Origin: Gemmatimonadota bacterium
Lineage (GTDB): Bacteria; Gemmatimonadota; Gemmatimonadetes; Longimicrobiales; Gaopeijiaceae
Reading direction: 5' to 3'
Length of the DNA: 64,000 nt
Assembly (NCBI GenBank): GCA_030428885.1
Contig: JAUIEJ010000009.1
Span: 124,001 to 188,000 of the forward strand
Made by a program: the position numbers and the translations under genes. Below are positions 5,237 to 21,596 of this stretch, in pieces. The notes beneath the pieces are model-generated. The model made no database searches and was not told the origin of the DNA. It saw only the letters and a program-made list of their open reading frames with translations. How positions within the stretch are numbered: the first letter of the stretch is position 1; each line of letters begins with the position of its first letter.

Positions 5237-6211
5237 TCATCCACCCAGCACTTCGGCCTCCAGACGGGCGTAGCTCGTCTCCATGCCGCCCACCATGCCG
5301 GTGCCCAGGACCATGTCGCGGACCTCCCGGCTGGGGTACGTGACGACCAGGATCAGCAAGGTGTGGTCGCCCGACGGAAGGAAGGTGAGCTCGTTCACCG
5401 CGGGGTCGCCGTCGAGGCCGATCATCTGCTCGGTGGTCACCACCCGCCGGGGGGGGTCGATCTCCAGCACCTCGCCCACGAACCCGAACCCTTCTCCTCC
5501 CCCGTCCGGCGCCCACTCGTACCGGTAGCTCTCGCCCACGGCGTCGGCCACCTCGCACACCGGCATGGTCCACCCGTCGGGCCCGAGCATCCAGCGCTTC
5601 ATGAGCTCGGGGTCGTGGTGGGCCCGCCACACCTGCTCCACCGATCCCCGGATCACCCGGCTGATCCGCACCTGGGTGTCGTTGAGGATCTGGGACTCGG
5701 CGGGCCGGGAAGCGGCAAACGACGTGAGGTCGGCCAGCACGTCGTCGATCTGACCCATGGCGGCCTTCATGCCCTGCTCCATGCCCATCTCCAGGAGCTG
5801 CTCCAACTGCTCGGCGGAGCCGAACCGGGTGACGGTGGTGAGCCGCGAGCCCCCCTCGGTGTCCTCGAACTCGAAGACCATGTGCATGGAGGGCATGGCT
5901 TCGTTCTCGTTGCCCTCGGCGTCGGCGAAGCCGTCGCGGACCTCGAATCGGCGGCCGGGATCCACCGAGAGGAACTCCCAGTACCCGCCCGACACCGTCC
6001 CGTCGGGTCCGGTCATGACGTAGTGGGAGCGCCCGCCTGGAAAGACGTCGTGGCGCAGGAACGTGGCGGGCCATTGGGGCGGCCCCCAGAATTTTTCGAT
6101 CTGCCGTGGGTCGGTGTACGCCTCCCACAGCCGCGCCCGGGAGGCGGCGAAGTCGGCGACCACGGTCATGGTGAGCGCCTCGGGGTCCTTCACGACGGAG
6201 GTGACGGGCAT
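5237..6211 (-). CDS. Two-domain SRPBCC (AHSA1-type START-like) protein
   Basis: Two SRPBCC/AHSA1-like helix-grip domains in one 324-residue chain. The first (about 5-150) has W-E-A-Y-T-D-P-R-Q-I-E-K-F-W-G-P and G-G-Y-W-E-F; the second (about 175-320) has V-W-R-A-H-H-D-P-E-L-M-K-R-W-M-L-G-P-D-G-W. Such domains bind hydrophobic ligands in a deep pocket, and the ArsR-SRPBCC pair is a recurrent bacterial operon, though ligands are seldom known. It follows the arsR gene with a 15-base gap and is expected to be co-transcribed and repressed by it. A tandem duplication within one polypeptide is less common than the single-domain form. No signal peptide is seen, so it is probably cytosolic. Confidence 0.85.
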   Translation of the reverse strand: MPVTSVVKDPEALTMTVVADFAASRARLWEAYTDPRQIEKFWGPPQWPATFLRHDVFPGGRSHYVMTGPDGTVSGGYWEFLSVDPGRRFEVRDGFADAEGNENEAMPSMHMVFEFEDTEGGSRLTTVTRFGSAEQLEQLLEMGMEQGMKAAMGQIDDVLADLTSFAASRPAESQILNDTQVRISRVIRGSVEQVWRAHHDPELMKRWMLGPDGWTMPVCEVADAVGESYRYEWAPDGGGEGFGFVGEVLEIDPPRRVVTTEQMIGLDGDPAVNELTFLPSGDHTLLILVVTYPSREVRDMVLGTGMVGGMETSYARLEAEVLGG

Positions 6212-6226
6212 GGGGGTGTCTCGGGT

Positions 6227-6568
6227 TCAGGTGTCTTCGTCGGCGAGGAGGGCGTCCAGGCGCTCCACTCGGCCCCGCCAGATGTCTTCGTAGCGATCCA
6301 GGAGGGCCTGGGCCCTCCGAATCGCGTCGGGGTTGCCACGCACGAGCCGCTCCCGCCCCTGGGGGTGCTTCGTCACCAGGCCCGCTCGCTCCAACACGGC
6401 CACGTGCTTCTGCACCGCCGCGAACGACATGTCGTACGAGGCCGCCAGCTCCGACACGGTGGCTTCCCGGGTCAGGGTGCGGCGCACGATGTCGCGGCGG
6501 GTGCCGTCGGCGAGTGCGCGGAAGAGTCGATCCACCTCGGCGGTGGCGTCGTTTGAACGTGCAACCAT
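6227..6568 (-). CDS. ArsR-family winged-helix repressor of the SRPBCC operon
   Basis: A 113-residue winged-helix protein. It has the ArsR pattern L-F-R-A-L-A-D-G-T-R-R-D-I-V at residues 15-28, the recognition region S-E-L-A-A-S-Y-D-M-S-F-A-A-V-Q-K-H-V, and the wing L-E-R-A-G-L-V. No metal-binding cysteine set is present (ELCVCDL is absent), so it belongs to the non-metal group that accompanies SRPBCC proteins. The start ATG at 6568 lies inside a palindrome and directly after a promoter, which implies autoregulation and a leaderless mRNA. The longer upstream reading frame overlaps the SGNH gene and is not used. Confidence 0.9.
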   Translation of the reverse strand: MVARSNDATAEVDRLFRALADGTRRDIVRRTLTREATVSELAASYDMSFAAVQKHVAVLERAGLVTKHPQGRERLVRGNPDAIRRAQALLDRYEDIWRGRVERLDALLADEDT

Positions 6569-6575
6569 ATGGTTG
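6562..6575. promoter_or_regulatory. Palindromic operator spanning the arsR start codon
   Basis: CAACCATATGGTTG is a perfect 14-bp palindrome covering the ATG at 6568. It touches the -10 element of the promoter on the reverse strand. Its position and symmetry fit autorepression by the ArsR dimer encoded immediately downstream. Confidence 0.7.
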
Positions 6576-6604
6576 TATATGGGACCGCGGGCCGTCCGGG
6601 TCAA
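6576..6604 (-). promoter_or_regulatory. Sigma-70-like promoter of arsR-SRPBCC
   Basis: On the reverse strand TTGACC (6604-6599) is followed after 17 bases by CATATA (6581-6576). A start point 6-8 bases further on falls on or next to the ATG at 6568, so the transcript would be leaderless. This agrees with the absence of a Shine-Dalgarno. Confidence 0.6.
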
Positions 6605-6651
6605 GATCCGGATGTCGGGATCCCCGAGGCCTCGCCGGCCTGGGGCCGCCC

Positions 6652-7863
6652 TCAGCCCTCGCCGTCTTCTTCGGCGGTGATGAAGCGGATGATCTCTTCG
6701 CTCACCTGCTCCGCCCCCGAGAGAACGGCGTGGGTCTCGTCGACGAAGGCGTCGGCGGGCAGGCGGTCGTGCAGGTCCAGGAAGGGCACGCCGGACAGGG
6801 TGGTCCGGAGCAGATCCAGGTAGGCCTCGTACCGCTCGGCCTCGTAGTACTGCAGGCTGATGGGGTTCTCCGGCATGTTCACCACGTACAGCCGCGACCC
6901 GTGGCGGGCGGCGAATTCCCTCAGGTCGCCCAACTGGGCCTGCACCATCTCCGCTTCGGCCCCGGGGTCCCATTCGTACACGACCCGGGAGAACGACTGC
7001 TGCGCCAGATCCTCGGCCAACCACGCGGGGTCGAGGGGTCGCATGTACTGGGTCTGGTAGGGCGACCCGTACACCGAGAGCCACATCCGGAGGGTGGGCA
7101 CCACGCCGTGGTCCCGGGTGAATGCGGCCAGCACCGGGACGTCGTTCCAGTTCAGGGGATTCCAGACGTCGTCCAGGAACTCGAGCTCGCCCACGTCGGC
7201 CCTCTCCCAGCCGGCGGCCCCGAGGCCCTCGTCGAGCCAGGCGGCCAGGGCGGCCCGGAACCGGGGCTGCTGCTTCCGCGCCAGGAACCTCAAGCGGCTT
7301 CGCTCGCCCTCCAGCCGCGACTTGGGCTCGAGCCTGGACCGGAGTCGGTCGGGCACGACCCGGCGATGGGGGCTGTAGTCGTTGATGGCGTTGAAGAGCG
7401 GACTGTAGGCGCCGACCAACCGCCCCGGCCCGAAACGCCGGGGGAAGTTGCCGACCATGCGGACCGTCACCCCCACGACGATCACCTCGGGAACGGCCGC
7501 CGAGCCGTACACCTCCTCGATGTAGTTCAGGACCACCAGGACGTCGTCCACGGTGCCGGTACTGATCCCCGACGGGACGATGCGATGGTCGGGAAAGGCC
7601 GCCCTGAACCGGTCCAGCAGCATGTTCTCTCCCGTCTCCGACGCCCCCACCAGGATCATCCGCCGTCCGGGAGGCTCCCGAACCAGGGAGGGAAGGAGGA
7701 GCCGGATCGGGTCCTCGCCGGCCAGGTAGGGATACGCCTTGCCCTGGACCTCCGACCCGACGGCGAGTCGGCCCAGCGCCCAATGGAGCGAGCCGTACAC
7801 CATCCCGGTCACGACCAGGGACAGGACGAGGGCTCGCGCGCGATCAGAACCCGGTGTAGACAA
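6652..7863 (-). CDS. Membrane-anchored SGNH-like acyltransferase, DltD/AlgX-type partner of the MBOAT
   Basis: A 403-residue protein with one N-terminal membrane segment (about 11-30) and an extracytoplasmic domain. An SGNH-type nucleophile block is visible as L-V-G-A-S-E-T-G-E-N with S75, and the C-terminal dyad as D375-E-T-H378 followed by A-V-L-S-G. DltD uses the same arrangement: a membrane anchor, an early Gly-x-Ser and a late D-x-x-H. In DltD the serine receives the acyl group from the shuttle peptide and passes it to the polymer. This gene is last in the five-gene operon, and its start overlaps the microprotein gene by 20 bases. The family assignment rests on motifs and context; overall similarity to DltD is not claimed. 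Confidence 0.72.
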   Translation of the reverse strand: MSTPGSDRARALVLSLVVTGMVYGSLHWALGRLAVGSEVQGKAYPYLAGEDPIRLLLPSLVREPPGRRMILVGASETGENMLLDRFRAAFPDHRIVPSGISTGTVDDVLVVLNYIEEVYGSAAVPEVIVVGVTVRMVGNFPRRFGPGRLVGAYSPLFNAINDYSPHRRVVPDRLRSRLEPKSRLEGERSRLRFLARKQQPRFRAALAAWLDEGLGAAGWERADVGELEFLDDVWNPLNWNDVPVLAAFTRDHGVVPTLRMWLSVYGSPYQTQYMRPLDPAWLAEDLAQQSFSRVVYEWDPGAEAEMVQAQLGDLREFAARHGSRLYVVNMPENPISLQYYEAERYEAYLDLLRTTLSGVPFLDLHDRLPADAFVDETHAVLSGAEQVSEEIIRFITAEEDGEG

Positions 7864-7948
7864 AATCCATCTCCGTCTTGGCGAAGACGAACAGCAGGGC
7901 CATCAAGACCACGATGAGCGCGATCCGAAGCACGACGCGGCGGTTCAT
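7844..7948 (-). CDS. DltX-like transmembrane microprotein with C-terminal acyl-shuttle motif
   Basis: This 34-residue protein has a basic N-terminus (M-N-R-R), one membrane helix (about residues 7-23) and an outside tail that ends exactly in F-V-Y-T-G-F. In the Dlt pathway the microprotein DltX has this architecture; its final hexapeptide of the form F-[IV]-Y-x-x-F carries the acyl group on the tyrosine. The gene overlaps the MBOAT stop by ATGA and the SGNH gene by 20 bases, so all three should be made together in fixed ratio. The codons are clean across the whole small frame, with no internal stop. The assignment comes from motif, topology, size and position. It is easily missed by gene callers with a length cutoff. 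Confidence 0.75.
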   Translation of the reverse strand: MNRRVVLRIALIVVLMALLFVFAKTEMDFVYTGF

Positions 7949-9162
7949 CGACCGAGCAGCCTTCCGAACACCGTGAAGGCCTCGTTCCAGGGGAGGTTGA
8001 AGAACACGAAGGCCAGGGCCGTGGCATGGAACGTCAGGATGATCCCGCCCGCGTGTACGAGCCCGTTCTGCCTCCACACCCTCACGCGCTTCTTTCCGAA
8101 TCGATGGGTCAGAAACGTGTTCCAGTTGTGATACACGACCAGGAACGCCGCATGGGCCAGACCGAAGAACAGGAACGCGAGGGTGGTGCCGTGCCAGAGG
8201 CCCGACACCACCATGGTGGCGACGAGGCTGACGTTGACCGCCACCGCCGGTCTCGCCAACACCGACTCCGAGGTGAGCGCCCATTTGTAGAGGGGCGAAA
8301 ACACGTAGTCGGTCAGCCACAAGGTCAGCGACCGGTGCTGCCGCAGCCAGAAGTCCGAGATGTTCCGAGCCAGGAACGGCTTGTCGAAGTTCTCCGGGGG
8401 ACGTACCCCCAGCAGGCTCCCCACCCCGATGACCACATCGCAGTAGCCCGAGAAGTTCAGGTAGAGAAAGAACCAGAACGCGTAGACCCCGACCCAGAGC
8501 TGGGTGACGGACGCCGTCAGGACGTCGGTGCCGGGGAGCAGGGCGAACGGCTGGACCCACACGGCCAGGACGTAGGCCTTGAGAAGCCCGACCAGGATGC
8601 GGATGACGGCGTCCAGATGGGCTTCCAGCGTCGGCGCCAGGGCCGGCGTGCGGCCGTGCCACTGATCGTGGAAGTCGTCGTAGCGCTGGATGGGGCCCAT
8701 CATGAACGTGGTGAAGCTGAAGCAGTAGTTGATGAAGGTCAGGAACTCGAGGGGGCGGGACGTTCCGCTGGCCGCCTCGATCATGACGTGCACGACCCTG
8801 AAGAGGAGGAAGCTCAGCCCCACCGTGGCGAAGGCCCCGGTCAGGACGAACTCCGGCGCCACCCAGTGGAGGATGTCGTAGTTCCGCATGTACACGAACA
8901 TCCCCACGTACACGGGAATGAGCAGCCGGTAGGCGAGGTGTTTCCGCTTCAGGATCGCCCGGGCGAATCCATACCCCACGAGACAGAACAGGAACGACGA
9001 CACGAGCCCCTGGAGGCCCAGCAGCATCCGACCGACGAAGTAGACGTTGATGAACAGGAAGACCCATGCCCGCGCCCGTCCGCGAAGCAGTCCCACGGAC
9101 AGGACCGCGGCGACGGCCAGGCCCAGGAACTGGACGGAGAGGAGGGAGAACCCGACGGGCAT
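7945..9162 (-). CDS. MBOAT-family membrane O-acyltransferase (DltB/AlgI type)
   Basis: A polytopic membrane protein of 405 residues. Classic DltB/AlgI features are present: F-L-Y-L-N-F-S-G-Y-C-D-V-V-I-G near 232-246; N-F-D-K-P-F-L-A-R-N-I-S-D-F-W-L-R-Q-H-R-S-L-T at 258-280; G-L-W-H-G at 321-325; and the presumed catalytic H337 in G-L-A-H. DltB moves an acyl group from a carrier-protein thioester on the inside to a tyrosine on the outside. The MBOAT here ends without the aromatic hexapeptide that some MBOATs carry at the C-terminus; the neighbouring microprotein supplies it instead. The start ATG lies 54 bases after the carrier-protein stop. Confidence 0.93.
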   Translation of the reverse strand: MPVGFSLLSVQFLGLAVAAVLSVGLLRGRARAWVFLFINVYFVGRMLLGLQGLVSSFLFCLVGYGFARAILKRKHLAYRLLIPVYVGMFVYMRNYDILHWVAPEFVLTGAFATVGLSFLLFRVVHVMIEAASGTSRPLEFLTFINYCFSFTTFMMGPIQRYDDFHDQWHGRTPALAPTLEAHLDAVIRILVGLLKAYVLAVWVQPFALLPGTDVLTASVTQLWVGVYAFWFFLYLNFSGYCDVVIGVGSLLGVRPPENFDKPFLARNISDFWLRQHRSLTLWLTDYVFSPLYKWALTSESVLARPAVAVNVSLVATMVVSGLWHGTTLAFLFFGLAHAAFLVVYHNWNTFLTHRFGKKRVRVWRQNGLVHAGGIILTFHATALAFVFFNLPWNEAFTVFGRLLGR

Positions 9163-9216
9163 GGGACGGGGGAGGGCCGGGAGGGGAGAGCCGGGGGGCG
9201 GATCGCCCCGTGGACG

Positions 9217-9462
9217 TCAGGACCCGGATCGAGCCACGACGAGGTCCAGCAGTTCCCCGACGTCGGCCAGGTTCGCGATCTCGCCGGTGGTGAGCTTGAT
9301 CCCGAAGGCCCGCTCCACGGCGACCATCAACTGGATGTGGGCCAGCGAATCCCATCCGTCCACATCGGCGGCGGTGGTGTCCCGGGCCAGGCGGAGGTCG
9401 GGCTCGTCGAGCACGTCGCGGAAGACCTGCGTGAGCTTCTCCATTGCGGCGCCGTCACTCAT
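9217..9462 (-). CDS. Acyl carrier protein of the MBOAT operon
   Basis: An 81-residue four-helix carrier protein. The phosphopantetheine site is S39 in D-G-W-D-S-L-A-H-I-Q-L-M, and the N-terminal helix M-E-K-L-T-Q-V-F-R-D-V-L-D-E is typical. The ATG at 9462 overlaps the end of the upstream FkbH gene (ATGAGTGA) and has GGAG upstream; an ATG 15 bases earlier is possible. The protein should hold the acyl unit made by the FkbH enzyme as a thioester for the MBOAT, the role DltC has in the Dlt pathway. No dedicated phosphopantetheinyl transferase or acyl ligase lies nearby, so a housekeeping transferase would activate it. Confidence 0.9.
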   Translation of the reverse strand: MSDGAAMEKLTQVFRDVLDEPDLRLARDTTAADVDGWDSLAHIQLMVAVERAFGIKLTTGEIANLADVGELLDLVVARSGS

Positions 9463-11326
9463 CGGATTCCACTCCATTGGCCGGCTCCGCCACGCGGATG
9501 GCCGGCTGAAAGGGTCGGTAGTCGTCCAGATCGATCACCCATTCGCCCACCGCTCCTTCCACGGCGGCGAAGCCCAGCGAGGGGTACAACTCGGCGACCA
9601 GACCGTTCTTCGCGGTGGGCCGGTAGAGCCCCCGGATGCGGGCGGCACCGAGCCGAGCCGCGCCTTCGGCGATGCGATTGGCCATGAGGTGTTCCACCCC
9701 CCGACCGAAGACGCGACAACTCATGAGCCACAGGTCGACGACGAACGTATCGCCGTCCAGGTGACCCGCGGCCACGCTGATCAGCCCGTTGTCGCCGAAG
9801 CGGTCCGCGAGCCGGACGTGGAGTCCGAGCTTCCCCGGATCGGTGCGGTAGCGCTCGAGTTCGGTCCGCGTCAGGCGACGTGTCGTGAGGTTGAACTGGT
9901 TGGTCTTGTTCGTGAGCTGCGTGATGCGCTCCATGGACGTCTCGTCGAAGACGCCCACGGTGGCGATCTGGTCGAGGGACTCGAGATAGCCCTCGTAGTC
10001 CAGGGTTTCGGACTTCAGGGCCTCCCGCTGGGCGTTCTCCCGATACAGCCGCCCTCGCACCCGGTCCTCGTCGCTCAGGGCCACGGTCTCGAACCACCCC
10101 GTGGCGTCGAGGGCGAGCGGGTAGTCGGCGGGATCGTCGGGAAGTTCCACGACCCGCACGTCGGGGATCGCCCGTCGCACTTCCGCCCGCTCCGCCGGAT
10201 TGTCGTCGACGAACACGATGGAGTCGAGCCCGATATTCAACTGGCGAGCGATCTCCACGATGTTTTCGGACTTGGGACTCCAGTTGGCCCGGAACGCCGC
10301 GAAGTCGGCCCGGCGCAGAACCATGTCCGGGAGGACGTCGAAGGGCTCGAGGGCGTTGGCTTCCTCGTTCTTGCTGCACACGGCGAGGATCACCCCCCGA
10401 TCCCCCAGCTCCTTGAGGTAGGACTGGAACGCCTTGTGGGATTCCGCCACGGCGTCGCCTTCGCCGATGCGCAGTCCCTCCACCCCGTCGTCGCCCACCA
10501 CACCTCCCCACAGCGTGTTGTCGAGGTCGACCACGACACACTTCGCACTCTTCCCCCGCAGGGCGCCCACCACCTGGGCCATGCTCCGCACGTAGGGAAC
10601 CATGCACTCCAGGGAGACGGGCTGTTTCGCGTGGTACCAGAAGCGGTGGTCGAACCACCGCAGGACGCCGTGAAGGGACGCCAGGGTCGCCACGTCGTTG
10701 ATGTGGACGTAGGCGGGTGCCCGGGCGGCCAGCGCGTGGTTCACCTCCCGGAGGAACCGGTTGCGGTCCCACGGAATGCGGGTGCCCGCGCTCCCGAGGG
10801 GTCGGGTGGGCAGGGGGTGGAAGTTGTTCAGCACCACGTCACACCCCACCCGGTCGTGGAGCGATCCGGCGAGTCGGAGCCACTCGTCGACCACCCGCTC
10901 CACCGCCTCGGCGGCCTCCTCGGGAGACGAGCCCACCGCCGGCCACGTCGAGACGTCGAAGACCGTGGGAGCCACCACCGCGACCTCGGGCCGGAAGCGG
11001 GCCGTGGCGCTGTCGGGGTCCAGCATCTCCCGGGCGATGACCCCGTAGTCGGCCCGGAAGAGATCGGTGGCCAGACCGGCGGCCTCCAGCGCGAGGCGCA
11101 GGGGCTTCTCCACGAGATCCATGCTCGCCCCGCCCAGGAGGGCGACCCGCAGAGGGTCGCCCGCGCCGGGCTCGCCGGATGCGGGGTCCCGGGCCGTGAG
11201 GCGATCGTGCCACCGGCAGAGGGTGGCGAATCGCAGGTAGTCGGTCTCGGACCGGGCCAGCGTCCTGAGACGGGCCCGGGCGGGACCGAGGTCCCCGCGC
11301 TCCACGAGGGTCTTGAGGATCTCCAC
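9455..11326 (-). CDS. FkbH-like HAD-IIIC phosphatase/acyl-loading enzyme
   Basis: A 623-residue protein. An N-terminal SGNH-like region (about 58-255) is followed by the HAD-IIIC/FkbH core with D267-L-D269-N-T-L-W-G-G-V, V-C-S-K-N-E and F-V-D-D-N-P-A-E-R, and a GNAT-like C-terminus (about 440-600, with S-C-R-V-F-G-R-G-V-E and Y-P-S-L-G-F). Characterised FkbH-type enzymes take 1,3-bisphosphoglycerate, remove the phosphate and leave glyceryl on an acyl carrier protein; other members load related three-carbon units. The next gene is such a carrier. GTG at 11326 is chosen because GGAG lies six bases upstream; the open frame extends to 13030 but crosses the epimerase genes. This gene replaces the DltA ligase of the Dlt pathway. 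Confidence 0.9.
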   Translation of the reverse strand: MEILKTLVERGDLGPARARLRTLARSETDYLRFATLCRWHDRLTARDPASGEPGAGDPLRVALLGGASMDLVEKPLRLALEAAGLATDLFRADYGVIAREMLDPDSATARFRPEVAVVAPTVFDVSTWPAVGSSPEEAAEAVERVVDEWLRLAGSLHDRVGCDVVLNNFHPLPTRPLGSAGTRIPWDRNRFLREVNHALAARAPAYVHINDVATLASLHGVLRWFDHRFWYHAKQPVSLECMVPYVRSMAQVVGALRGKSAKCVVVDLDNTLWGGVVGDDGVEGLRIGEGDAVAESHKAFQSYLKELGDRGVILAVCSKNEEANALEPFDVLPDMVLRRADFAAFRANWSPKSENIVEIARQLNIGLDSIVFVDDNPAERAEVRRAIPDVRVVELPDDPADYPLALDATGWFETVALSDEDRVRGRLYRENAQREALKSETLDYEGYLESLDQIATVGVFDETSMERITQLTNKTNQFNLTTRRLTRTELERYRTDPGKLGLHVRLADRFGDNGLISVAAGHLDGDTFVVDLWLMSCRVFGRGVEHLMANRIAEGAARLGAARIRGLYRPTAKNGLVAELYPSLGFAAVEGAVGEWVIDLDDYRPFQPAIRVAEPANGVESDE

Positions 11327-11596: not shown

Positions 11597-12790
11597 ATGT
11601 CGACCAACCGCCGGGACTTCCTGAAGCTCACCGCGGCCGCCACGGGGGCCGTGGGCCTGGGGCTCCCCTCCTCCCTCGCCGGAGCCCACTCCGGCCCGTC
11701 GTCGTCCGGGGCGGGACACCGGCCCGACGATCCACCGCGCCGGGCCCTCCGCATGCTGATCCTCGGCGGGACGGGGTTCATCGGGCCCCACATGGTGCGC
11801 TACGCCCTGGAGCGCGGTCACGAGGTCACCCTCTTCAACCGGGGGCGCTCCAACACCGACCTCTTTCCCGAGGTCGAGACCCTCATCGGTGACCGGAACG
11901 ACGACGTGTCGGCCCTGGCCGGCCGCACGTGGGATGTCTGCATGGACAACAACGCCGGCACGGGGCGGGCGCCGTGGTGGGTCGACCTGACGGGGCGGGC
12001 ACTCCTGGATTCGGTGGCCCGGTACTACTTCGTCTCCACCCGCTCGACCTACGCCGCCGTCGACGCCGTGCCCATGACCGCCGCCCAACCCACCCTCACC
12101 TTCGAGACGGCGGGGGTGGATCCGTCGGCCGAGTCCCTGCCCTACGGCCTGGCCAAGGCGGAGGCGGAACGCACCGTGCTCGGGCTCTACGGCACCGACC
12201 GCACCGGGATCTTCCGGCCGGGACTCATCATCGGACCCGGCGACCAGACCGACCGCTTCACCTACTGGCCCGTGCGGATCGAAATGGGGGGAGAGGTCCT
12301 GGCGCCCAGCGGCGGCATGGACCCCATCCAGATCATCGACGTGCGGGATCTGGTGGAGTGGATGGTGCGCATGGCCGAGGCCGGGGAATCGGGCACCTAC
12401 AACTGCGTGGGCCCCGAGTATCCCCGGCCCATCTCCGAACTGCTCTACGGGATCCGGGCCGTCACCACCGCCGAAACGATCTTCACCTGGGTCGACACCG
12501 ACTTCCTCATGGAGCGCGGGGTGCGCCCGTACAGCGATCTCCCCGTGTGGCGTCCTCCCGAGCTGGGGGCGGGCTTCGCGCGCTTCGATCTCACCGACGA
12601 GGTGGCCCGGGGGCTGACCTTCCGGCCCCTGGCCACCACCGCGTCCGACACCCTGGCGTTCCACCACTCCCGCCCCCGGGAGGTGCAGGACGCGGTGCTC
12701 GGGCGTTTCTTCACCCCGGAGGAGGAACGGGCCGTGCTCGACGCGTGGCACGCCCGCCCCGGCGCACCGGGCCCTCGCTGGATCGGATGA
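11597..12790 (+). CDS. Tat-exported NAD-dependent epimerase/dehydratase-like protein (first copy)
   Basis: The protein has 397 residues and starts with a twin-arginine signal (N-R-R-D-F-L-K followed by a hydrophobic stretch). A short-chain/extended Rossmann domain follows: nucleotide loop G-G-T-G-F-I-G near residue 57, active-site Y-G-L-A-K, and substrate-domain features shared with nucleotide-sugar epimerases and the isoflavone-reductase-like group. The start ATG at 11597 has GAGAGGTG upstream. Export of a nucleotide-dependent enzyme by Tat fits folding with a tightly held cofactor. A close paralogue begins 37 bases later. Neither substrate nor product can be named. Confidence 0.85.
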   Translation: MSTNRRDFLKLTAAATGAVGLGLPSSLAGAHSGPSSSGAGHRPDDPPRRALRMLILGGTGFIGPHMVRYALERGHEVTLFNRGRSNTDLFPEVETLIGDRNDDVSALAGRTWDVCMDNNAGTGRAPWWVDLTGRALLDSVARYYFVSTRSTYAAVDAVPMTAAQPTLTFETAGVDPSAESLPYGLAKAEAERTVLGLYGTDRTGIFRPGLIIGPGDQTDRFTYWPVRIEMGGEVLAPSGGMDPIQIIDVRDLVEWMVRMAEAGESGTYNCVGPEYPRPISELLYGIRAVTTAETIFTWVDTDFLMERGVRPYSDLPVWRPPELGAGFARFDLTDEVARGLTFRPLATTASDTLAFHHSRPREVQDAVLGRFFTPEEERAVLDAWHARPGAPGPRWIG

Positions 12791-12827
12791 CCACGAACGA
12801 CAATTCACCTCGAAGGGGATGCTGCAG

Positions 12828-14003
12828 ATGACACCGACCCGCCGTGACTTCCTCCGCACCACCGGCATGATCGGAGCCGGCCTCGCCCTGGGGGGTTCGT
12901 CGGCCTGCTCCGGCGACGCCGACGCCGGTGCCGAGGGGGCCGCCGCAGGCGCTCCCGCCGCCGACACGCCTCCCCCGGCTCCCAAGCGGATCCTCATCCT
13001 GGGGGGCACCGGCTTCATCGGTCCCCACATGGTGGAGTACGCCCTGGCCCGGGGTCACGAGGTGACCACCTTCACCCGAGGACGCTCCGCCACCGAGCTT
13101 CCCCCGGCGGTGGAGCAGTTGATCGGAGACCGCAACGACGACCATACCGCGTTGGAGGGTCGGCGCTGGGACGTGGTGCTGGACAACAACACCCAGGACT
13201 ACCGCTGGGTGCAGACCAGCACGGGACTCCTGGCCGATGCCACCGAGCACTACGTCTTCGTTTCGTCCATTTCCGTCTACGCGACCCAGGGCGTCGGCGG
13301 TGGCCCCGAGCAGGTCATCCTGGAGCCCATGGTGGACGAGGACTTCCAGCGGATTCCCCGCCCCGAGGGATGGACCGACGGGGACGACGCGCCCTACGGT
13401 CTCATGAAGACCCTGAGTGAAGACATCGTCCATGCCGCCTTCCCCGGTCGCGCCACCATCGTGCGCCCCGGCCTGATCGTGGGGCCCGGAGATCCCACCG
13501 ACCGGTTCACCTACTGGCCGGTCCGCCTGGACGAGGGCGGCGAAGTGCTCGCTCCGGGCAACCCCGAGCACGCCACCCAGGTCATCGACCAGCGCGACCT
13601 CACCGAGTGGATCGTCCGCCTCGCCGAGTCCCGGACCATGGGCGACTTCAACGCCACCGGACCCGCCGAACGCCGCTCCATGGCCCAGATGCTGGACGAG
13701 GTGGGGAGCGTCGCCTCCAACCCGTACGAGCTCACCTGGGTGCCCGAGTCGTTTCTCGCCGAGCAGGGCGTGCGCCCGTGGGTCGACCTCCCCGCCTGGA
13801 TCCCCGGCGACCCCACCATGTTCGTGGACGTGCGGGACGCGGTGGCCGCGGGGCTCACCTTCCGGCCCCTGGCCACCACCTCCCGGGACACCCTGGCCTG
13901 GGACCGCACCCGGCCGGCCGAGGAGCGGGAGAACCGTCAGTTCGGGATGAGCCGGGAACGGGAGCGCCAGGCCCTGGACGCCTGGCACGCGGCCCAGGGG
14001 TAG
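12828..14003 (+). CDS. Tat-exported NAD-dependent epimerase/dehydratase-like lipoprotein (second copy)
   Basis: A 391-residue paralogue of the preceding gene, sharing L-I-L-G-G-T-G-F-I-G-P-H-M-V, P-G-L-I-x-G-P-G-D, R-F-T-Y-W-P-V-R and G-L-T-F-R-P-L-A-T-T near the C-terminus. The N-terminus is T-R-R-D-F-L-R, then a hydrophobic core and A-C-S-G-D, so it looks like a Tat-exported lipoprotein. Of two nearby ATGs the one at 12828 is preferred because AAGGGG lies about nine bases upstream; the ATG at 12819 touches that site. The active-site tyrosine context is A-P-Y-G-L-M-K. The pair probably arose by tandem duplication and shares a transcript. Confidence 0.85.
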   Translation: MTPTRRDFLRTTGMIGAGLALGGSSACSGDADAGAEGAAAGAPAADTPPPAPKRILILGGTGFIGPHMVEYALARGHEVTTFTRGRSATELPPAVEQLIGDRNDDHTALEGRRWDVVLDNNTQDYRWVQTSTGLLADATEHYVFVSSISVYATQGVGGGPEQVILEPMVDEDFQRIPRPEGWTDGDDAPYGLMKTLSEDIVHAAFPGRATIVRPGLIVGPGDPTDRFTYWPVRLDEGGEVLAPGNPEHATQVIDQRDLTEWIVRLAESRTMGDFNATGPAERRSMAQMLDEVGSVASNPYELTWVPESFLAEQGVRPWVDLPAWIPGDPTMFVDVRDAVAAGLTFRPLATTSRDTLAWDRTRPAEERENRQFGMSRERERQALDAWHAAQG

Positions 14004-15125: not shown

Positions 15126-16304
15126 GTGCATGATGCGATCATGTCTGCCCCTCACTCTCGCACCGTTCCGGCTCTCGCTGCCGTGACCCTCGCCGTCCTG
15201 GCCTGCGGCGACGCCCCGCCCGCCGACGCGGGTGCCGACCCGCCCCTCTCCTCCCTCGGCCCGGTGGCGACGCTCCAGGAGGAGATGCGGATCGACGGGT
15301 ACGAGGCCGATCTGGTGCCCATCGGGGGCCTCGCGGTGTCCGCCGACGGCAGGCTGGCCGTGAGCCAGCCCCAGGATCACCAGGTCCGGGTGTTCTCGCC
15401 CGAGGGCGCGCTCCTGGCCACCTACGGGCGGCAGGGGGAGGGGCCGGGGGAGTTCCGGTATCCCGGCGGTCCGGCCTGGCGGGGCGACACCCTGGTGGTG
15501 GCCGACAACCAACTGCACCGCTTCACCCTCTTCCGACCCGGTGGCGACGGGCCCTGGACCAGGCCGGGCATCCCTCCGCTCCCCCTCCCCGATGGGTTCG
15601 CCTTCGCAACGGAGCAGTGGCCGCGCCCCGACGGCACCGTCCTGGCCCAGATGAGACTCGGAGGCGCCACGGAGGTGCGGGCCGTGGTGGCCCGCCCCGA
15701 CGGTTCGGAGAGTCGCACGCTCCTGAACGCCGCCGTGGAGATGCACGAGATCGGCGTGGGCATGACCGGCGGTCGGGCGGTCACGAGCTCCCCCTACCCC
15801 AACGAACCCCGTTTCGCCCTGGCCGACGACGGCAGCCGAGCCGTCGTGGCCCAGGCCGCCCTCGACGGCGACCACGCGGGTACGTTCCTCCTCACCTCGG
15901 TGGCCGCCGGCGGCGACACCCTCTTCACCCGCCGCTACGCCTTCGATCCCGTGGAAATCACGCCGGCGTTCGCCGACAGCGTCATCGACCGTCGCGCCGA
16001 GTCCATCGAGCCGTCCTCCCCCACCCTGGCGGCGGCCTTCCGACGGGAAGCCCGGCTCCCTCCCATGCTCCCGCCGGTGCTCACCCTGCGCTACGGAGTC
16101 GACGGCACCCTCTGGCTGCGTCTGCGCACCCCGTCCGACGAGCGCCTCTACACGGTGCTGGACGACGAGGGGCTCCCGGTGGGCCAGGTGCGCCCTCCAC
16201 CCCGCGGGGGCCCCCGTCTCATGAGCCGCACACACGTCTGGGCCGTGGAGCACGACGACGTGGGCATGCCCAGCATCGTGCGCTACCGGGTGCTCTGGCC
16301 CTGA
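15126..16304 (+). CDS. Six-bladed beta-propeller (NHL/6-bladed BF2222-like) lipoprotein
   Basis: A 392-residue product with a short lipoprotein-type signal (A-V-T-L-A-V-L-A-C-G-D). Propeller-blade repeats follow: G-L-A-V-S-A-D-G-R-L-A-V-S, H-Q-V-R-V-F-S-P-E-G, Y-G-R-Q-G-E-G-P-G-E-F-R-Y-P, L-V-V-A-D-N. The G-x-G-P-G-E-F motif is typical of the 6-bladed NHL-like group common in Bacteroidota and Gemmatimonadota. The GTG at 15126 is chosen because GGAAGG lies five bases upstream; an ATG at 15141 is also possible and leaves the signal peptide intact. Function unknown. The 3' end overlaps a convergent lipoprotein gene by 22 bases. Confidence 0.72.
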   Translation: MHDAIMSAPHSRTVPALAAVTLAVLACGDAPPADAGADPPLSSLGPVATLQEEMRIDGYEADLVPIGGLAVSADGRLAVSQPQDHQVRVFSPEGALLATYGRQGEGPGEFRYPGGPAWRGDTLVVADNQLHRFTLFRPGGDGPWTRPGIPPLPLPDGFAFATEQWPRPDGTVLAQMRLGGATEVRAVVARPDGSESRTLLNAAVEMHEIGVGMTGGRAVTSSPYPNEPRFALADDGSRAVVAQAALDGDHAGTFLLTSVAAGGDTLFTRRYAFDPVEITPAFADSVIDRRAESIEPSSPTLAAAFRREARLPPMLPPVLTLRYGVDGTLWLRLRTPSDERLYTVLDDEGLPVGQVRPPPRGGPRLMSRTHVWAVEHDDVGMPSIVRYRVLWP

Positions 16305-16780
16305 GGCGGACCCACGAAGAGCAACAGCCGCCCGGTGCGGAGTTCCGCCCGCCACGCCATGCGGACCTCGGCGGCGTCCGGGGGCGCCGGTTCGGCCACC
16401 ACTACCGCGTCGAGGCGCCGTGGGTCGAGCTCATGGGGCCCCACATCGGCCCCCACCACCGACACGAACATGCAGTCTCCACCGGCGGTCGAGCGCACGC
16501 AGGGGCTCCGGCCCCAAAGCTCGACGGTGACGCCGGGCACCGCCGCCCGGTCCAGGGCCTCGGCGAGAGAACCGGCCCCGTCGGCGGCGGCCCGCCACTC
16601 CCCGCCAGTCACCACCACGATGCGCCGGGGGCGCAGCCCGTCCCGGGCCAGATGGGCCGCGGCGACCTCCCGGTAGACCGCTTCGTCCACGGCCGGCGCG
16701 GGCGTCGGGGCCGGCGTCCGCCCCCCACACCCCACGAGCACCATGCCGGCGAGGACCGCTCCGGTGCGGCCCCGGATCAA
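16283..16780 (-). CDS. Small lipoprotein, unknown function
   Basis: A 165-residue product with a textbook lipobox (A-G-M-V-L-V-G-C-G-G). I place the start at a TTG (16780) that overlaps the stop of the upstream ChaN-like gene in TTGA and is preceded by GGCGGGGG; the first methionine codon is 13 residues in and would truncate the signal. The mature protein contains V-V-V-T-G-G-E-W and a central region that might be a Rossmann-like or phosphoesterase fragment, but no family is recognised. Coupled translation with the ChaN-like gene suggests a shared envelope role. Confidence 0.55.
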   Translation of the reverse strand: MIRGRTGAVLAGMVLVGCGGRTPAPTPAPAVDEAVYREVAAAHLARDGLRPRRIVVVTGGEWRAAADGAGSLAEALDRAAVPGVTVELWGRSPCVRSTAGGDCMFVSVVGADVGPHELDPRRLDAVVVAEPAPPDAAEVRMAWRAELRTGRLLLFVGPPQGQSTR

Positions 16781-17736
16781 CCCCCGCCCGGCGCCTGGGT
16801 CACCACCACGAAGTCCCCGAGGCCCGCGAAACGCTCGGGGTCCCAGGCCGTGGGGTCCTCCGCGGGGCGGGCCGCCACGATGAGGGACCGGGTCCCGGGA
16901 CGGTAGTGCTGCAGCGCCTCGGGAGTCCCCGTGGCGTTCTCCACGTGGAAGCCGCCGGCCATGTGGAGTACCAGGCCGCCCGGGTGCGTGTCCAGCGCCG
17001 TGGCCACCGCGTGTCCCATGCTGGCGTCCCAGAGGGTCTGCCCATCCAGGGGATCGCCCGGTCCGTGGCCGCCCATGGAAACGCCCCCCATGAGGGCGTC
17101 CCACTCGGCCTGGTAGGCGTCGGAGGCCCGGGGGTAGGGCAGCGGCGGCAGGTAGCGACGCGCGTCGGGACCCAGGGTCTCCACGCTGTCCCGCCCGAGC
17201 CGGGAGGCCCGGTTCACGTACCGCCGGGGGGCGTTGGCCGCCACCACGTCCATGTCGTGGGCCTTGGCGAACTCCACCATGGGCCGGTAGTCGGCGGCGT
17301 AGTTGTCCCACGGGCGGGCGCTGCGCCGGAAGTGGTCTTCGGTGATGAGGTCACCGAGGTACTCGTCCACGATGTACTGGACGTCCCGCTCGAACATCTC
17401 CAGCGACAGCACCACCGGCCGCTGGGACCCGTAGCCCATGAACGCCCGCTCCACGAGCAGGGCCTGGACCCGATGGGTCACGGGGTCGTTGTGCTCCTCG
17501 CCCACGAAGACCGCGTCGCTGGAGGCCATGGCCGCCACGATGTCGTCCACCGAGGCCGGGGCGCCGTCCCTCGTGTAGACCACGAAGTCCGTCCCCTCCC
17601 GGAGAGGAGCGGGGGCCGGCGCCTCGGCGGGGGTGGTGGAGGGCATGGGGGTCGGTGGTGCGGGGGCGGGGGCGCCACCACAGGCAGCGAAGGCTGCGGT
17701 GGCCCCGAGGGCGAGGGCGAAGCGGGGGTTCATCAT
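16777..17736 (-). CDS. ChaN-like (DUF399) haem-associated lipoprotein
   Basis: A 319-residue lipoprotein (A-A-F-A-A-C-G-G at the signal cleavage point, then a proline-rich linker). The ChaN/TIKI-fold signature is present: V-F-V-G-E-E-H-N-D-P-V-T-H near residue 93, L-S-L-E-M-F-E-R-D-V-Q near 128, and the late W-D-A-S-M-G-H with G-G-F-H-V-E. ChaN proteins are linked to haem/iron uptake in Campylobacter, where tyrosines and such histidines coordinate haem; the wider fold includes metalloproteases. No haem transporter is adjacent here. The ATG at 17736 is the first of two adjacent ATGs; the longer frame upstream lacks a ribosome-binding site and would spoil the signal. Confidence 0.8.
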   Translation of the reverse strand: MMNPRFALALGATAAFAACGGAPAPAPPTPMPSTTPAEAPAPAPLREGTDFVVYTRDGAPASVDDIVAAMASSDAVFVGEEHNDPVTHRVQALLVERAFMGYGSQRPVVLSLEMFERDVQYIVDEYLGDLITEDHFRRSARPWDNYAADYRPMVEFAKAHDMDVVAANAPRRYVNRASRLGRDSVETLGPDARRYLPPLPYPRASDAYQAEWDALMGGVSMGGHGPGDPLDGQTLWDASMGHAVATALDTHPGGLVLHMAGGFHVENATGTPEALQHYRPGTRSLIVAARPAEDPTAWDPERFAGLGDFVVVTQAPGGG

Positions 17737-17818
17737 CTCGGAACGTCGTCGTGGGGTGGCATTCTGGGGACTCCGTAACCTCCCACCCCCGGCGCCCGGG
17801 GGCAACGGAACACCCCGT

Positions 17819-19207
17819 TCAGACGCGGATCGCCTCCACGGTGTGGGCACGGCGGCTCCGCTCCGCGGCGAAGCCCATGACGTGGCTTTCGATGGAGGCG
17901 TCGATGGTCGAGGTCAGCCGGGTGGGGTCCTGGGTCGCCACGGCCTCCACGAAGTTGGCCATGAGGCGCCAGTCGCCCCCCCCGTGACCGTCGGCGGCGA
18001 ACTGGTCCACCCCCAGGGTCGCGCTCTCGAAGTCCTGGGTCGTCCGGGTCGGGAAGTCCACCACGCGGAGCCGGGTCATGTCGCCCTCGATGTAGCCCAT
18101 GCTCCCCATGACCCGGGTGCGGCGACCCCCGAACGGGGTGAACGCCTCCATGCTGAAGCTCGCGGTGACGCCCCCGGCGAACTGGAGGTTGGTGACGTAG
18201 TGGTCGGGCTGGTCGTTGTCCATGCGGTAGACGCAGCGCCCGTAGTCGGTGGTCCGCAGGTACTCCAGGATGGCCCCGTCCCACTCCGACCGATCCTCGG
18301 GCAGATCGAACACGTAGAGGCGCTGGCGATCCCGGTGGTAGATGCGCAGTGCCGAGTAGGGGCATTCGGCCTCCACGGCACAGCCGTCCATGCACCGGGC
18401 GGTGCTCCCCTCCGGCGCGTTGTCGGCCGTGAACCAGCTCAGTTCGCCGAAGGCCTGAATGCGCTCGGCGGGCCGGCCGATCATCCACCGCAGGATGTCC
18501 AGATCGTGGCACGACTTGGCGAGAATGATGGGGGTCGTCGCCTCGCTGTCGTGCCAGTTGCCCCGCACGTACGAGTGGGACATGTGGATCGCCTCGATGG
18601 GCTCGAGGTGCTGGATGCTCACCACCTCGCCGATGGCTCCGGACTGCATGAGCTCGCGCATCTTCACGAAGTAGGGCGCGTAGCGGAGCACGTGGCAGAC
18701 GGCGACGATCCGGCCGGTGGCGTGGGTCCGCTCCAGGATGTCCCGGCACTCCTGCTCCGACGGGGAGATGGGCTTCTCCAGCAGGACGTCGTACCCCATT
18801 TCGAGGGCCCGCATGCACGGACCGTAGTGGAGGTCGTCGGGGGTCGTGATGATGACGGCGTCGGCGAACCTGGGGCGATCGAAAACGTGCTCCCACGTCA
18901 CGAATCGGCGGTCGGCGGCGATGTCGTGGAGCCGTGCGTAGCGCTCCTGCCGGATGGGAATGGGCTCGGCGACGCCCACGATGTCGACCTGGTCCGGGTA
19001 CTCCGCCGCGTACCCGCCGTAGACGTTACCCCGGGAGCCGGCCCCCAGGGTGATGGCCGTGATGGGCTCGGCGGGCGTGAACCGCCCCAGCGGGTCGGGG
19101 AGGATCAACGGCTCCCCGTGTTCGTTCCTGGCGTGGGGGGACCACGGATAGAAGGTGCCGCCCACGAGGGCGCCGCCCATCAACCGGAGCGATTCGCGTC
19201 GGTCCAT
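17819..19207 (-). CDS. Gfo/Idh/MocA-family oxidoreductase, Tat-type N-terminus
   Basis: A 462-residue protein. After a short D-R-R-E-S-L-R-L-M-G-G-A-L-V-G-G segment resembling a Tat signal comes the Rossmann domain with A-I-T-L-G-A-G-S-R-G-N-V-Y, then V-I-I-T-T-P-D-D-L-H-Y and the family lysine motif Y-D-V-L-L-E-K-P-I-S near residue 145. The C-terminal half is the Gfo/Idh/MocA substrate domain, with H-D-L-D-I-L-R-W as the second active-site helix. Members oxidise or reduce sugars, inositol or related polyols with NAD(P). The specific sugar is unknown. Tat export with bound cofactor, as in glucose-fructose oxidoreductase, is plausible. Its start codon has no strong Shine-Dalgarno. Confidence 0.88.
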   Translation of the reverse strand: MDRRESLRLMGGALVGGTFYPWSPHARNEHGEPLILPDPLGRFTPAEPITAITLGAGSRGNVYGGYAAEYPDQVDIVGVAEPIPIRQERYARLHDIAADRRFVTWEHVFDRPRFADAVIITTPDDLHYGPCMRALEMGYDVLLEKPISPSEQECRDILERTHATGRIVAVCHVLRYAPYFVKMRELMQSGAIGEVVSIQHLEPIEAIHMSHSYVRGNWHDSEATTPIILAKSCHDLDILRWMIGRPAERIQAFGELSWFTADNAPEGSTARCMDGCAVEAECPYSALRIYHRDRQRLYVFDLPEDRSEWDGAILEYLRTTDYGRCVYRMDNDQPDHYVTNLQFAGGVTASFSMEAFTPFGGRRTRVMGSMGYIEGDMTRLRVVDFPTRTTQDFESATLGVDQFAADGHGGGDWRLMANFVEAVATQDPTRLTSTIDASIESHVMGFAAERSRRAHTVEAIRV

Positions 19208-19297
19208 CGAGTCCTCGAGCGTCGGGGGTGGGTTGCGACCGTGGCAACGTAGCTCGGGAGCCGCGCCATCACGAGCGTCCGGAGGTCGGAGGCCCGC

Positions 19298-20086
19298 TCA
19301 GCCGGCCGGTGGAGGGGTCCCCGTGGCGCCGCGCATCCGGGCCAGCGTGTCGACCATGCGCCCCCGGAGGTCGTCCATGAACGGCTCGGGATCGGCCTTG
19401 GGATCGCTCCAGTCGAACCGCCCCACGTATTCCATGCGGGCGTCGATGGCGTTCAGGCTTCCCAACAGGTGCTGGAACTTCGCGTGCTGCCACAACCCGT
19501 CCACCACGAAGGCGTGCACCTCGAAGGCGCGCGCCCGGAGGATCCATCCCAGCCCCCCGGCACGGAACGGGCCGATCTCGCCGTCCCGGGTCCGGGTGCC
19601 CTCGGGATAGATCATGAGGGGCACGTCCGAGTCCCGTGCGATCTGCCGCAGGCTCTTCAGCATGCGCCGTCCCTCGCCCGGCGACGCCTCGGGATCCACC
19701 ACCGGGTTCCGGTACAACCGCACCAGATGGGAGATGAGGGGAATGGAGCGGGCGTATCGCCGGCGGGTGACCAGGCGCAGGTATCCACCGTCCAACGCCC
19801 GAACGCCCAGGGGAATGTCCAGGAGGGACTGGTGATTGATGACGATGAGGACTCCGGGCCGGCACGGAACGACCCGGTGCCGGGGCGGAAGGGAGGCCCC
19901 GCCCACCACTTCCAGGGGCCAGGCGATGAAGCGCTCCAGGAACTGCATCCACCGCCCGAGCACCGTCCGGCGGCTTCCGGGCCGGAGCCAGAGCCAGGGG
20001 CCGATCACCCCTCGCTGCACCAGATCGAAGACCAGGAGGCCCCCGCAGATGGTCCCCATGGCCAGATAACCCCGGAGCCGACTCAC
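19298..20086 (-). CDS. 1-acyl-sn-glycerol-3-phosphate acyltransferase (PlsC-like)
   Basis: A 262-residue membrane-associated acyltransferase. The four lysophosphatidate acyltransferase blocks are seen: I-N-H-Q-S-L-L-D (NHxxxxD, about residue 83), G-G-Y-L-R-L-V-T-R-R, the Y-P-E-G-T-R-T-R block near 160, and the final hydrophobic segment. An N-terminal membrane helix precedes them. The enzyme acylates lysophosphatidic acid, or a related lipid, in phospholipid synthesis. A long-chain acyl donor is expected. The gene lies 28 bases downstream of the polyphosphate:AMP phosphotransferase gene and may share its transcript, but the two activities have no known link. Confidence 0.88.
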   Translation of the reverse strand: MSRLRGYLAMGTICGGLLVFDLVQRGVIGPWLWLRPGSRRTVLGRWMQFLERFIAWPLEVVGGASLPPRHRVVPCRPGVLIVINHQSLLDIPLGVRALDGGYLRLVTRRRYARSIPLISHLVRLYRNPVVDPEASPGEGRRMLKSLRQIARDSDVPLMIYPEGTRTRDGEIGPFRAGGLGWILRARAFEVHAFVVDGLWQHAKFQHLLGSLNAIDARMEYVGRFDWSDPKADPEPFMDDLRGRMVDTLARMRGATGTPPPAG

Positions 20087-20114
20087 GCCGGCGCACCCCG
20101 AGGGTGGGCGACCC

Positions 20115-21596
20115 TCATTCGTCCAGAGCCAGCGCGTGGCACAGGGTCTCCAGGACCCGCAGCCGCGCGAACTTCTTCTGATCGCCGGGCACCAGGGTCC
20201 AGGGGGCGCGGGCCGAGCTGGTGCGTTCCACCATCTCGTGGACGGCTGCGGTGTAGGCGTCCCAGCGCTCCCGGTTCCGCCAGTCGTCCTTCGTGAGCTT
20301 GTAGCGCTTGTAGGGCACCTTCTCCCGGCTTTCGAAGCGCTGTTCCTGCTTCTCCGGAGAGATGTGGATCCAGAACTTCACCACCGCCATGCCGTGCTCG
20401 AGGAGCCGGTGCTCGAAGTCGTTGATTTCGGCGTAGGCTCGCCGCCACTCCTCCTCGTCGGCGAACCCCTCGATGCGTTCCACCAACACCCGGCCGTACC
20501 AGCTCCGGTCGAAGACGGCGATCTCGCCGGCCCGGGGGAGGCGGCGCCAGAAACGCCACAGATAGTGGCGGGCCTTCTCCTCCTGGGTGGGCTCGGCGAT
20601 GCGGTGTACCTCGATGTGGCGGGTGTCGATAGCGGGCACGATCCGACGGATCGCCCCGCCCTTGCCCGCGGCGTCCCACCCCTCGAAAACGATCACGGCG
20701 CCCCGCCCTCGGGCGTGGCGTTCCCGGTAGATGCGGTTGAGACGACCCTGGAGTTCGGGAAGCCGCGCCCGGTACTCCTCCTCGTCGACCCGGGAGCCGA
20801 GATCGACGGCATCCAGGACGTTGCGATGGCCCGGCACGGTGGGCATCTGGAGCGCCGGCGGGTGATCCGGCCCCCCGCCTCCGTTGTCCCGGGCCAGGGC
20901 CTGGCGCATGGCCGCCAGGGTCACCTCGGCCACCTCGAGACTCCGGAAGTTGGCGTCGGCGCCTTCGATGATGGTCCAGGGGGCGTGGCCCGTGCTCGTG
21001 CGGCCGATGAGTTCCTCGGCGGTCTCCACGAAGCGGTCGTAGCGGCCCCAGTTCGCCCAGTCCTTCTCGGTCACGCGCCACGCCTGGTGGGGATCGGCCT
21101 CCAGCGTCTCGAAGCGGACCTTCTGCTGATCGTGGCCCAGGTGCATCCAGAACTTGAGGATCACGGCCCCGTCCTCGGCCCACATGCGCTCCATCATGCG
21201 GACGTGATCGAGCTCCCGGTGGAACTCGGCGGGGGTGGAGCGATCGTCGACCCGGTCCAGGAAGGGATGGTGGTACCAGGCCGACAGGTAGATCGCCACC
21301 TCGCCCCCCGGGGGAAGATCGCGCCAGTAGCGCCACTGACCGGGCATCTCCCGCTCCACCTCGGTGGCTCGGGCGTAGGCGTGGGTGCGGATGCCCCGGG
21401 GGTCCATCCAGGCGTTGAGGAGGTTGGCCGACTCCCCCTTCCCCGCACCGTCGACGCCTGCGAAGACGATGAGAAGCGGGATGTTGGTCCGGCTCAGTTC
21501 GAACTGGGCCTCCAGGAGCGCCCGGCGCAGTTCCGGCTGACGAGCCTGGAATTCGTCGTCGGAGACCTCCTGACCGAGTTCGGCGGTTTCGAACAT
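20115..21596 (-). CDS. pap: Polyphosphate:AMP phosphotransferase (tandem PPK2 domains)
   Basis: Two PPK2 domains in a 493-residue chain. The first (about 1-245) has F-A-G-V-D-G-A-G-K-G-E and Y-L-S-A-W-Y-H-H-P; the second (about 260-490) has F-E-G-W-D-A-A-G-K-G-G and the intact lid motif F-D-R-S-W-Y-G-R-V-L-V-E-R. The tandem arrangement is that of class II PPK2 enzymes, which phosphorylate AMP to ADP with polyphosphate. Only the C-terminal domain carries the full DRSWY motif, as in characterised Pap enzymes, so the N-terminal copy is probably structural or regulatory. Start ATG at 21596; the frame remains open far upstream through the permease gene, which is a high-GC artefact. Confidence 0.92.
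   Translation of the reverse strand: MFETAELGQEVSDDEFQARQPELRRALLEAQFELSRTNIPLLIVFAGVDGAGKGESANLLNAWMDPRGIRTHAYARATEVEREMPGQWRYWRDLPPGGEVAIYLSAWYHHPFLDRVDDRSTPAEFHRELDHVRMMERMWAEDGAVILKFWMHLGHDQQKVRFETLEADPHQAWRVTEKDWANWGRYDRFVETAEELIGRTSTGHAPWTIIEGADANFRSLEVAEVTLAAMRQALARDNGGGGPDHPPALQMPTVPGHRNVLDAVDLGSRVDEEEYRARLPELQGRLNRIYRERHARGRGAVIVFEGWDAAGKGGAIRRIVPAIDTRHIEVHRIAEPTQEEKARHYLWRFWRRLPRAGEIAVFDRSWYGRVLVERIEGFADEEEWRRAYAEINDFEHRLLEHGMAVVKFWIHISPEKQEQRFESREKVPYKRYKLTKDDWRNRERWDAYTAAVHEMVERTSSARAPWTLVPGDQKKFARLRVLETLCHALALDE

Follow-up and report, generated by a model that had tools for sequence, protein, structure and literature searches.

We describe a five-gene operon, found in a 64,000-nucleotide stretch (the window) of contig JAUIEJ010000009.1 from a Gemmatimonadota bacterium, that encodes an FkbH-type loading enzyme, an acyl carrier protein, a membrane-bound O-acyltransferase (MBOAT), a membrane microprotein and an SGNH protein. 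Our principal reading, to which we give a probability of roughly 0.7, is that these proteins constitute a self-contained, Dlt-like transmembrane acylation system in which FkbH would do the charging that falls to the ATP-using ligase DltA in Dlt, and which would pass a glyceryl group to an extracytoplasmic acceptor.

The five-gene operon and its proteins

The genes lie in a single leftward operon (11326-6652, minus strand), as a preliminary description of this DNA had proposed, and the catalytic residues of their products are intact. The features are as follows.

9455..11326, minus strand: FkbH-type HAD-IIIC acyl-loading enzyme, 623 amino acids; GTG start; matches to TIGR01686 and PF21211
9217..9462, minus strand: acyl carrier protein, 81 amino acids; PF00550; phosphopantetheine Ser39 in WDSL
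7945..9162, minus strand: MBOAT acyltransferase, 405 amino acids; PF03062; DltB length, no fused C-terminal motif; His276 and His324
7844..7948, minus strand: single-pass membrane microprotein, 34 amino acids, DltX-like; read from the translation; F29-V-Y31-T-G-F34, motif codons at 7847-7864
6652..7863, minus strand: membrane-anchored SGNH acyltransferase, about 403 amino acids; TTG start uncertain; Ser75, Asp375, His378

Three of the four junctions overlap: FkbH and carrier by 8 nucleotides (nt), MBOAT and microprotein by the 4 nt of an ATGA, and microprotein and SGNH by about 20 nt, provided that the TTG at 7863 is the SGNH start. A 54-nt gap separates the carrier gene from the MBOAT gene. 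The preliminary description had reported ATGA-type overlaps between most neighbours; the overlaps are indeed there, but the strict ATGA form occurs at one junction only.

The loading enzyme has the hallmarks of the FkbH family. In profile searches it scored 314.5 bits on TIGR01686 (cut-off 146.65) and 44.7 bits on PF21211, and it consists of an FkbH N-terminal domain, a HAD core with the HAD-IIIC motif and a C-terminal domain with the invariant Cys537. The invariant cysteine of FkbH enzymes carries the glyceryl. D267, D269, K352, D374, D375 and C537 are each conserved in all 70 aligned FkbHs, and the operon's copy is the only FkbH in the genome. The carrier protein scored 34.5 bits on PF00550, above the cut-off, and 15.4 bits on the DltC equivalog NF003464, for which 68 are needed. 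Its W37-D38-S39 is invariant in an alignment of ten carriers of this kind.

The MBOAT reached 60.1 bits on PF03062, above the cut-off, and 181.7 bits on the DltB equivalog TIGR04091 against a cut-off of 375. MBOATs with a fused shuttle motif fall in the same range on the latter profile (162-183 bits), and the true DltB of a Dlt operon from the same phylum (locus L036) scored 386 bits. In a sequence search, DltB was the sole solved relative of the window MBOAT, aligning over nearly the full length, and the predicted model of the protein also matched DltB best (6bug, TM 0.72). His276 and His324 are both invariant in our alignment A2 and correspond by alignment to the DltB active-site residues His289 and His336. 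The protein stops at residue 405 without a shuttle motif and has a carrier at its side, and so departs from the PatAB/AlgI pattern of a fused motif and no carrier.

The motif is encoded separately, as in Dlt systems. The microprotein has the sequence MNRRVVLRIALIVVLMALLFVFAKTEMDFVYTGF and ends in FVYTGF, which conforms to the C-terminal FxYxxF of DltX-like microproteins. Its open reading frame (ORF) has a coding composition, with GC fractions of 0.56/0.26/0.91 at the three codon positions, and base changes between relatives fall mostly at third positions (18 of 30 between L001 and L005, 24 of 45 between the window and L004). A separate ORF of like ending and position is found in the related loci L001-L005, L061 and L129; the ending reads DF-I/V-YT-S/G-F in near relatives and FLYQGF or FIYAGF in distant ones. 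In six of these eight split loci (the window, L001, L003, L004, L005 and L061) the microprotein ATG overlaps the MBOAT stop as ATGA, and in L002 and L129 the start lies 2 nt from it.

The SGNH protein gave no match in Pfam or NCBIfam. Its predicted model has an SGNH/GDSL fold, with Z around 14 to PatB. DltD (6pfx) was the first Foldseek row (E 5e-3) and also gave the longest VIA-align alignments (258-276 residues, Z 13.8-13.9); several SGNH esterases score slightly higher in Z than DltD. Ser75, Asp375 and His378 are invariant in eight homologues and provide the Ser and Asp-x-x-His of a DltD-kind SGNH acyltransferase.

Other MBOATs of the phylum served as a control. The FxYxxF-type motif is fused to the C-terminus in 28 of the 29 checked, beyond the point at which the window MBOAT ends; the single exception (L011/L036) belongs to a genuine Dlt operon, in which the motif has an ORF to itself. 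A separate motif ORF also accompanies those short, motif-less MBOATs that were open to checking, and three Dlt-like loci of Planctomycetota have one too. From the fused-motif control and the comparison with the true Dlt operon, we take the window unit to have a Dlt architecture in which FkbH replaces DltA. L062 and L068 were not counted as carrier-less split MBOATs, as their lengths fit fused genes with a frameshift.

The Dlt operon of L036 (G040:C24, 5448-9687) is complete, with a carrier, a DltD-like protein, an ORF ending in PSFIYQAF, DltA and the 386-bit DltB. In the Planctomycetota loci L063 (4098-4262) and L065 (7986-8150), a 54-codon ORF ending in FLYAVF lies downstream of a large opposite-strand ORF and is convergent with the DltA-carrier-MBOAT set; there the motif microprotein apparently keeps to the SGNH side.

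The window operon is bordered upstream by a divergent plus-strand gene at about 11597 and downstream by an ArsR/AHSA1 pair. Two consecutive genes of the NAD-dependent epimerase/dehydratase family occupy 11597-14003 on the plus strand, and both products begin with apparent twin-arginine signal sequences, which is unusual for this family.

Relatives with split and fused motifs

A scan for close MBOATs, with one genome per species, returned the five loci L001-L005. The full five-gene set is present in L001, L002 and L005, all from metagenome-assembled genomes (MAGs) of Gammaproteobacteria, and in L003, from a Binatia MAG. These four share the order MBOAT-microprotein-SGNH-FkbH-carrier, whereas the window has FkbH-carrier-MBOAT-microprotein-SGNH. 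Two Planctomycetota contain distant five-gene versions, one in the window order (L129) and one in another (L061). The unit is therefore conserved across at least four major lineages, and the separate microprotein follows the MBOAT in every five-gene relative. Because gene content is kept while gene order changes, we regard the conservation as strong evidence that the five genes work together; recurrence in more than one order across lineages also rules out a chance assembly. The small F-x-Y-x-x-F gene that the preliminary description expected after the MBOAT is present in all seven loci that combine FkbH, a carrier and a motif-less MBOAT, and in one locus without FkbH as well.

The closest split loci group together in the MBOAT tree with support of 100/99; the placement of the long branches L129, L036 and L066 is unsure. 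Vertical inheritance within the phylum was rejected, since no close MBOAT turned up in the other genomes among the 298 sampled. Around the seeds, the seed genome stood alone among 369 sampled genomes for L001, 198 for L003 and 201 for L005. As its nearest relatives are rare and belong to other phyla, we take the window unit to be mobile or patchily lost; a plasmid search with the window MBOAT gave no match.

Two of the close loci deviate in detail. In L004 (Scalindua, 8001-9217) the MBOAT is spread over two reading frames, but the genes for the microprotein (DFVYTGF) and the SGNH protein are intact. L005, from a Methylococcaceae MAG, encodes a second, AlgX-like SGNH protein after the carrier gene (6119-7450).

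A survey of FkbH genes extended the association to a second form, which the preliminary description had missed. The survey recorded 54 FkbH places in 48 of 298 genomes of the window's phylum and 22 places in 20 of 246 Planctomycetota genomes. A same-strand MBOAT adjoins FkbH at 5 of the 54 places, for which the number expected by chance, roughly estimated from about one MBOAT per 4-Mb genome and 3.3 kb either side of FkbH, is well under 0.1; in Planctomycetota an MBOAT is found beside FkbH in at least 3 of the 22. FkbH and a carrier accompany MBOATs with a fused motif in L066, L069 (a gammaproteobacterial MAG), L140, L143, L146 and L151, on a Rhodobacteraceae plasmid (L153) and on pSymB of Sinorhizobium meliloti, where the order is VOC-MBOAT-putative SGNH-carrier-FkbH. 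Several SGNH assignments in fused loci are made from position and the G-x-S and D-x-x-H motifs, the profile match being weak or absent. Most FkbH-linked fused MBOATs sit within the AlgI-like group of the MBOAT tree, which points to probable repeated recruitment of the FkbH-carrier module. A quick tree of FkbHs puts most of those linked to an MBOAT near each other, except those of L129 and L061 and the second FkbH of L066.

In S. meliloti 1021 (L152, pSymB, 15206-20405), as in L158 and L159, the fused-motif MBOAT adjoins the carrier and FkbH. FkbH reads as two overlapping frames in strain 1021 and is one intact gene in strains ml28 and RCAM1750. The gene between MBOAT and carrier, annotated as 'TonB-dependent receptor', occupies the position expected of the SGNH gene.

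Further small genes recur beside FkbH-carrier loci. A small protein of the VOC/glyoxalase fold is encoded in L069 (5745-6137), L146 (10416-10841), L153 (11909-12337), L155 (11229-11696) and L158 (1799-2266); one guess is that it acts as an epimerase of the carrier-bound acid. S-adenosylmethionine (SAM) methyltransferases are encoded near the FkbH-carrier units of L061 (1716-2654), L129 (1938-2894) and L155 (10264-11232), and could O-methylate the glyceryl group.

Proposed relay and competing explanations

The individual parts of the proposed pathway have precedents. Dlt and PatAB provide established examples of the relay steps (PMC12148441), and for tetronate and methoxymalonate pathways it is accepted that FkbH loads glyceryl from 1,3-bisphosphoglycerate (PMC7489565). 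By analogy with these families, from which we infer the glyceryl cargo and each transfer, FkbH would take the acyl group of 1,3-bisphosphoglycerate in the cytoplasm, remove the phosphate and hold glyceryl on Cys537, from where it would load the group onto the carrier's phosphopantetheine at Ser39. Once charged, the carrier would dock at the cytoplasmic face of the MBOAT, and the MBOAT may send the acyl group across the membrane to the microprotein, whose C-terminal FVYTGF would receive it on Tyr31. Finally, the SGNH protein would accept the group on Ser75 and hand it on to an extracytoplasmic hydroxyl group, the likeliest acceptor being a cell-surface glycan. Glycerate would thus probably become attached to a surface polymer. 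The preliminary description had outlined much the same mechanism. As an architecture it is well supported, with a Dlt-like relay and the active-site residues of FkbH, carrier, MBOAT and SGNH in place; its unmodified glyceryl and envelope-polymer acceptor keep the standing of predictions.

Several observations weigh against this glyceryl relay. Inspection of the neighbourhood found no glycan genes beside the window operon, so the acceptor is not indicated. Identity between the window FkbH and the polyketide-embedded FkbH domains of our comparison set is only about 24%, which is why the cargo is assigned at family level. L004 retains MBOAT, microprotein and SGNH, and no FkbH was found in that Scalindua assembly. 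In some relatives a methyltransferase, VOC-fold or SDR/MaoC gene lies nearby, and the cargo may therefore be altered in these members.

These points bear on what is carried and where it goes. The same relay may carry a three-carbon acid other than plain glyceryl, such as O-methylglyceryl, lactyl or another hydroxyacyl group, or this FkbH subfamily may use another acyl phosphate. The sequence distance from polyketide FkbHs would fit this, as would the methyltransferases adjoining the distant split loci L061 and L129, the VOC proteins adjoining fused-motif loci and the SDR/MaoC protein adjoining L151; however, no such modifying gene lies inside the unit in the window or in its closest relatives, L001, L002 and L005, and all FkbH catalytic residues are kept, and we consider a different cargo unlikely. 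Equally doubtful to us is an acceptor other than a polymer, i.e., a lipid, a secreted small molecule or a protein, with the unit tailoring a secondary metabolite, which would be compatible with a glyceryl cargo. The window operon does lack adjacent glycan genes, and FkbH domains and MBOATs co-occur in suomilide-type nonribosomal peptide clusters (PMC13122637, PMC10143770). In those clusters, however, the two are uncoupled, glycerate being built into the peptide and a sugar being the proposed substrate of the MBOAT, and the window operon has no synthase genes. L003, furthermore, lies amid flippase, glycosyltransferase and sulfotransferase genes, L002 has a PMT-type glycosyltransferase gene in its vicinity, and a capsular gene is found near one of the S. 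meliloti loci.

Ordinary D-alanylation of a polymer, with FkbH as an incidental neighbour, would account for the resemblance of the predicted MBOAT and SGNH models to DltB and DltD and of the microprotein to DltX. Yet neither the MBOAT nor the carrier comes close to its equivalog cut-off (DltB and DltC, respectively), and the operon encodes no adenylating (AMP) ligase and has FkbH in its place, although the whole genome was not searched for DltA. The real Dlt operon of the same phylum (L036), by comparison, contains a DltA-like ligase and an MBOAT above the DltB cut-off, and FkbH and carrier accompany the window type of MBOAT across lineages and gene orders. On the two cut-offs and the missing ligase we reject ordinary D-alanylation, which strikes us as highly improbable.

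Relation to known systems and significance

With Dlt (DltABCDX, D-alanylation of teichoic acid in the walls of Gram-positive cells) the window unit shares a carrier, a short MBOAT without a fused motif, a separate FxYxxF membrane microprotein and a membrane-anchored SGNH protein in one operon. It differs in having FkbH for DltA, in the scores of its MBOAT and carrier, in relatives that belong to Gammaproteobacteria, Binatia and Planctomycetota, and probably in cargo and acceptor. PatAB and AlgI-type O-acetylation likewise pair an MBOAT with an SGNH protein and a tyrosine shuttle motif, but use acetyl-CoA and a fused motif without a carrier (PMC12148441), whereas the window has a carrier and a separate microprotein. 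Tetronate and methoxymalonate glycerate-utilisation operons resemble it in placing FkbH beside a small stand-alone carrier, with glyceryl-carrier as the expected product; there glyceryl enters a polyketide, whereas the genes that follow in the window encode an outward membrane relay. We class the unit as a variant form of MBOAT-SGNH envelope acylation that uses an FkbH loader; it would work in the manner of Dlt, but its operon lacks the ligase, and its MBOAT and carrier do not score as DltB and DltC.

According to a 2025 study of PatAB, neither a carrier protein nor a DltX-like microprotein is present in other MBOAT/SGNH pathways (PMC12148441). The loci reported here go against both halves of that statement as a general rule. 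In the open-licence literature we found no FkbH coupled to a Dlt-like or MBOAT/SGNH system, in agreement with the preliminary description, which knew of no characterised pathway of this combination; FkbH-plus-MBOAT appeared there only as uncoupled steps in peptide biosynthesis (PMC13122637, PMC10143770). The joining of FkbH loading to a Dlt/PatAB relay in this operon is our inference. Glycerate esters on secreted polysaccharides are themselves known chemistry: gellan, a sphingan, carries L-glycerate (PMC9104527), the kind of product predicted here, and in the open-licence literature we found no paper on genes for its glycerylation.

Beyond the window, the chances seem to us about even that these loci represent a widespread, undescribed class of envelope acylation, in which glyceryl esters on surface polymers would draw their acyl group as well as the energy from glycolytic 1,3-bisphosphoglycerate, with no need for CoA or ATP-dependent activation. 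Split, Dlt-like MBOATs and fused, AlgI-like ones would have been joined to the FkbH-carrier module in separate events, and glycerate esters like those on gellan may be accounted for by this class. Because S. meliloti, a tractable plant symbiont, carries the fused form, the idea is testable. If it is true, the Dlt/PatAB transmembrane acyl relay would be a general chassis to which different cytoplasmic loaders can be fitted, among them one supplied straight from glycolysis. The idea would also predict a glyceryl-ester surface modification in bacteria where perhaps nobody has looked, and would offer a candidate gene set for glycerate esters on polysaccharides such as gellan.

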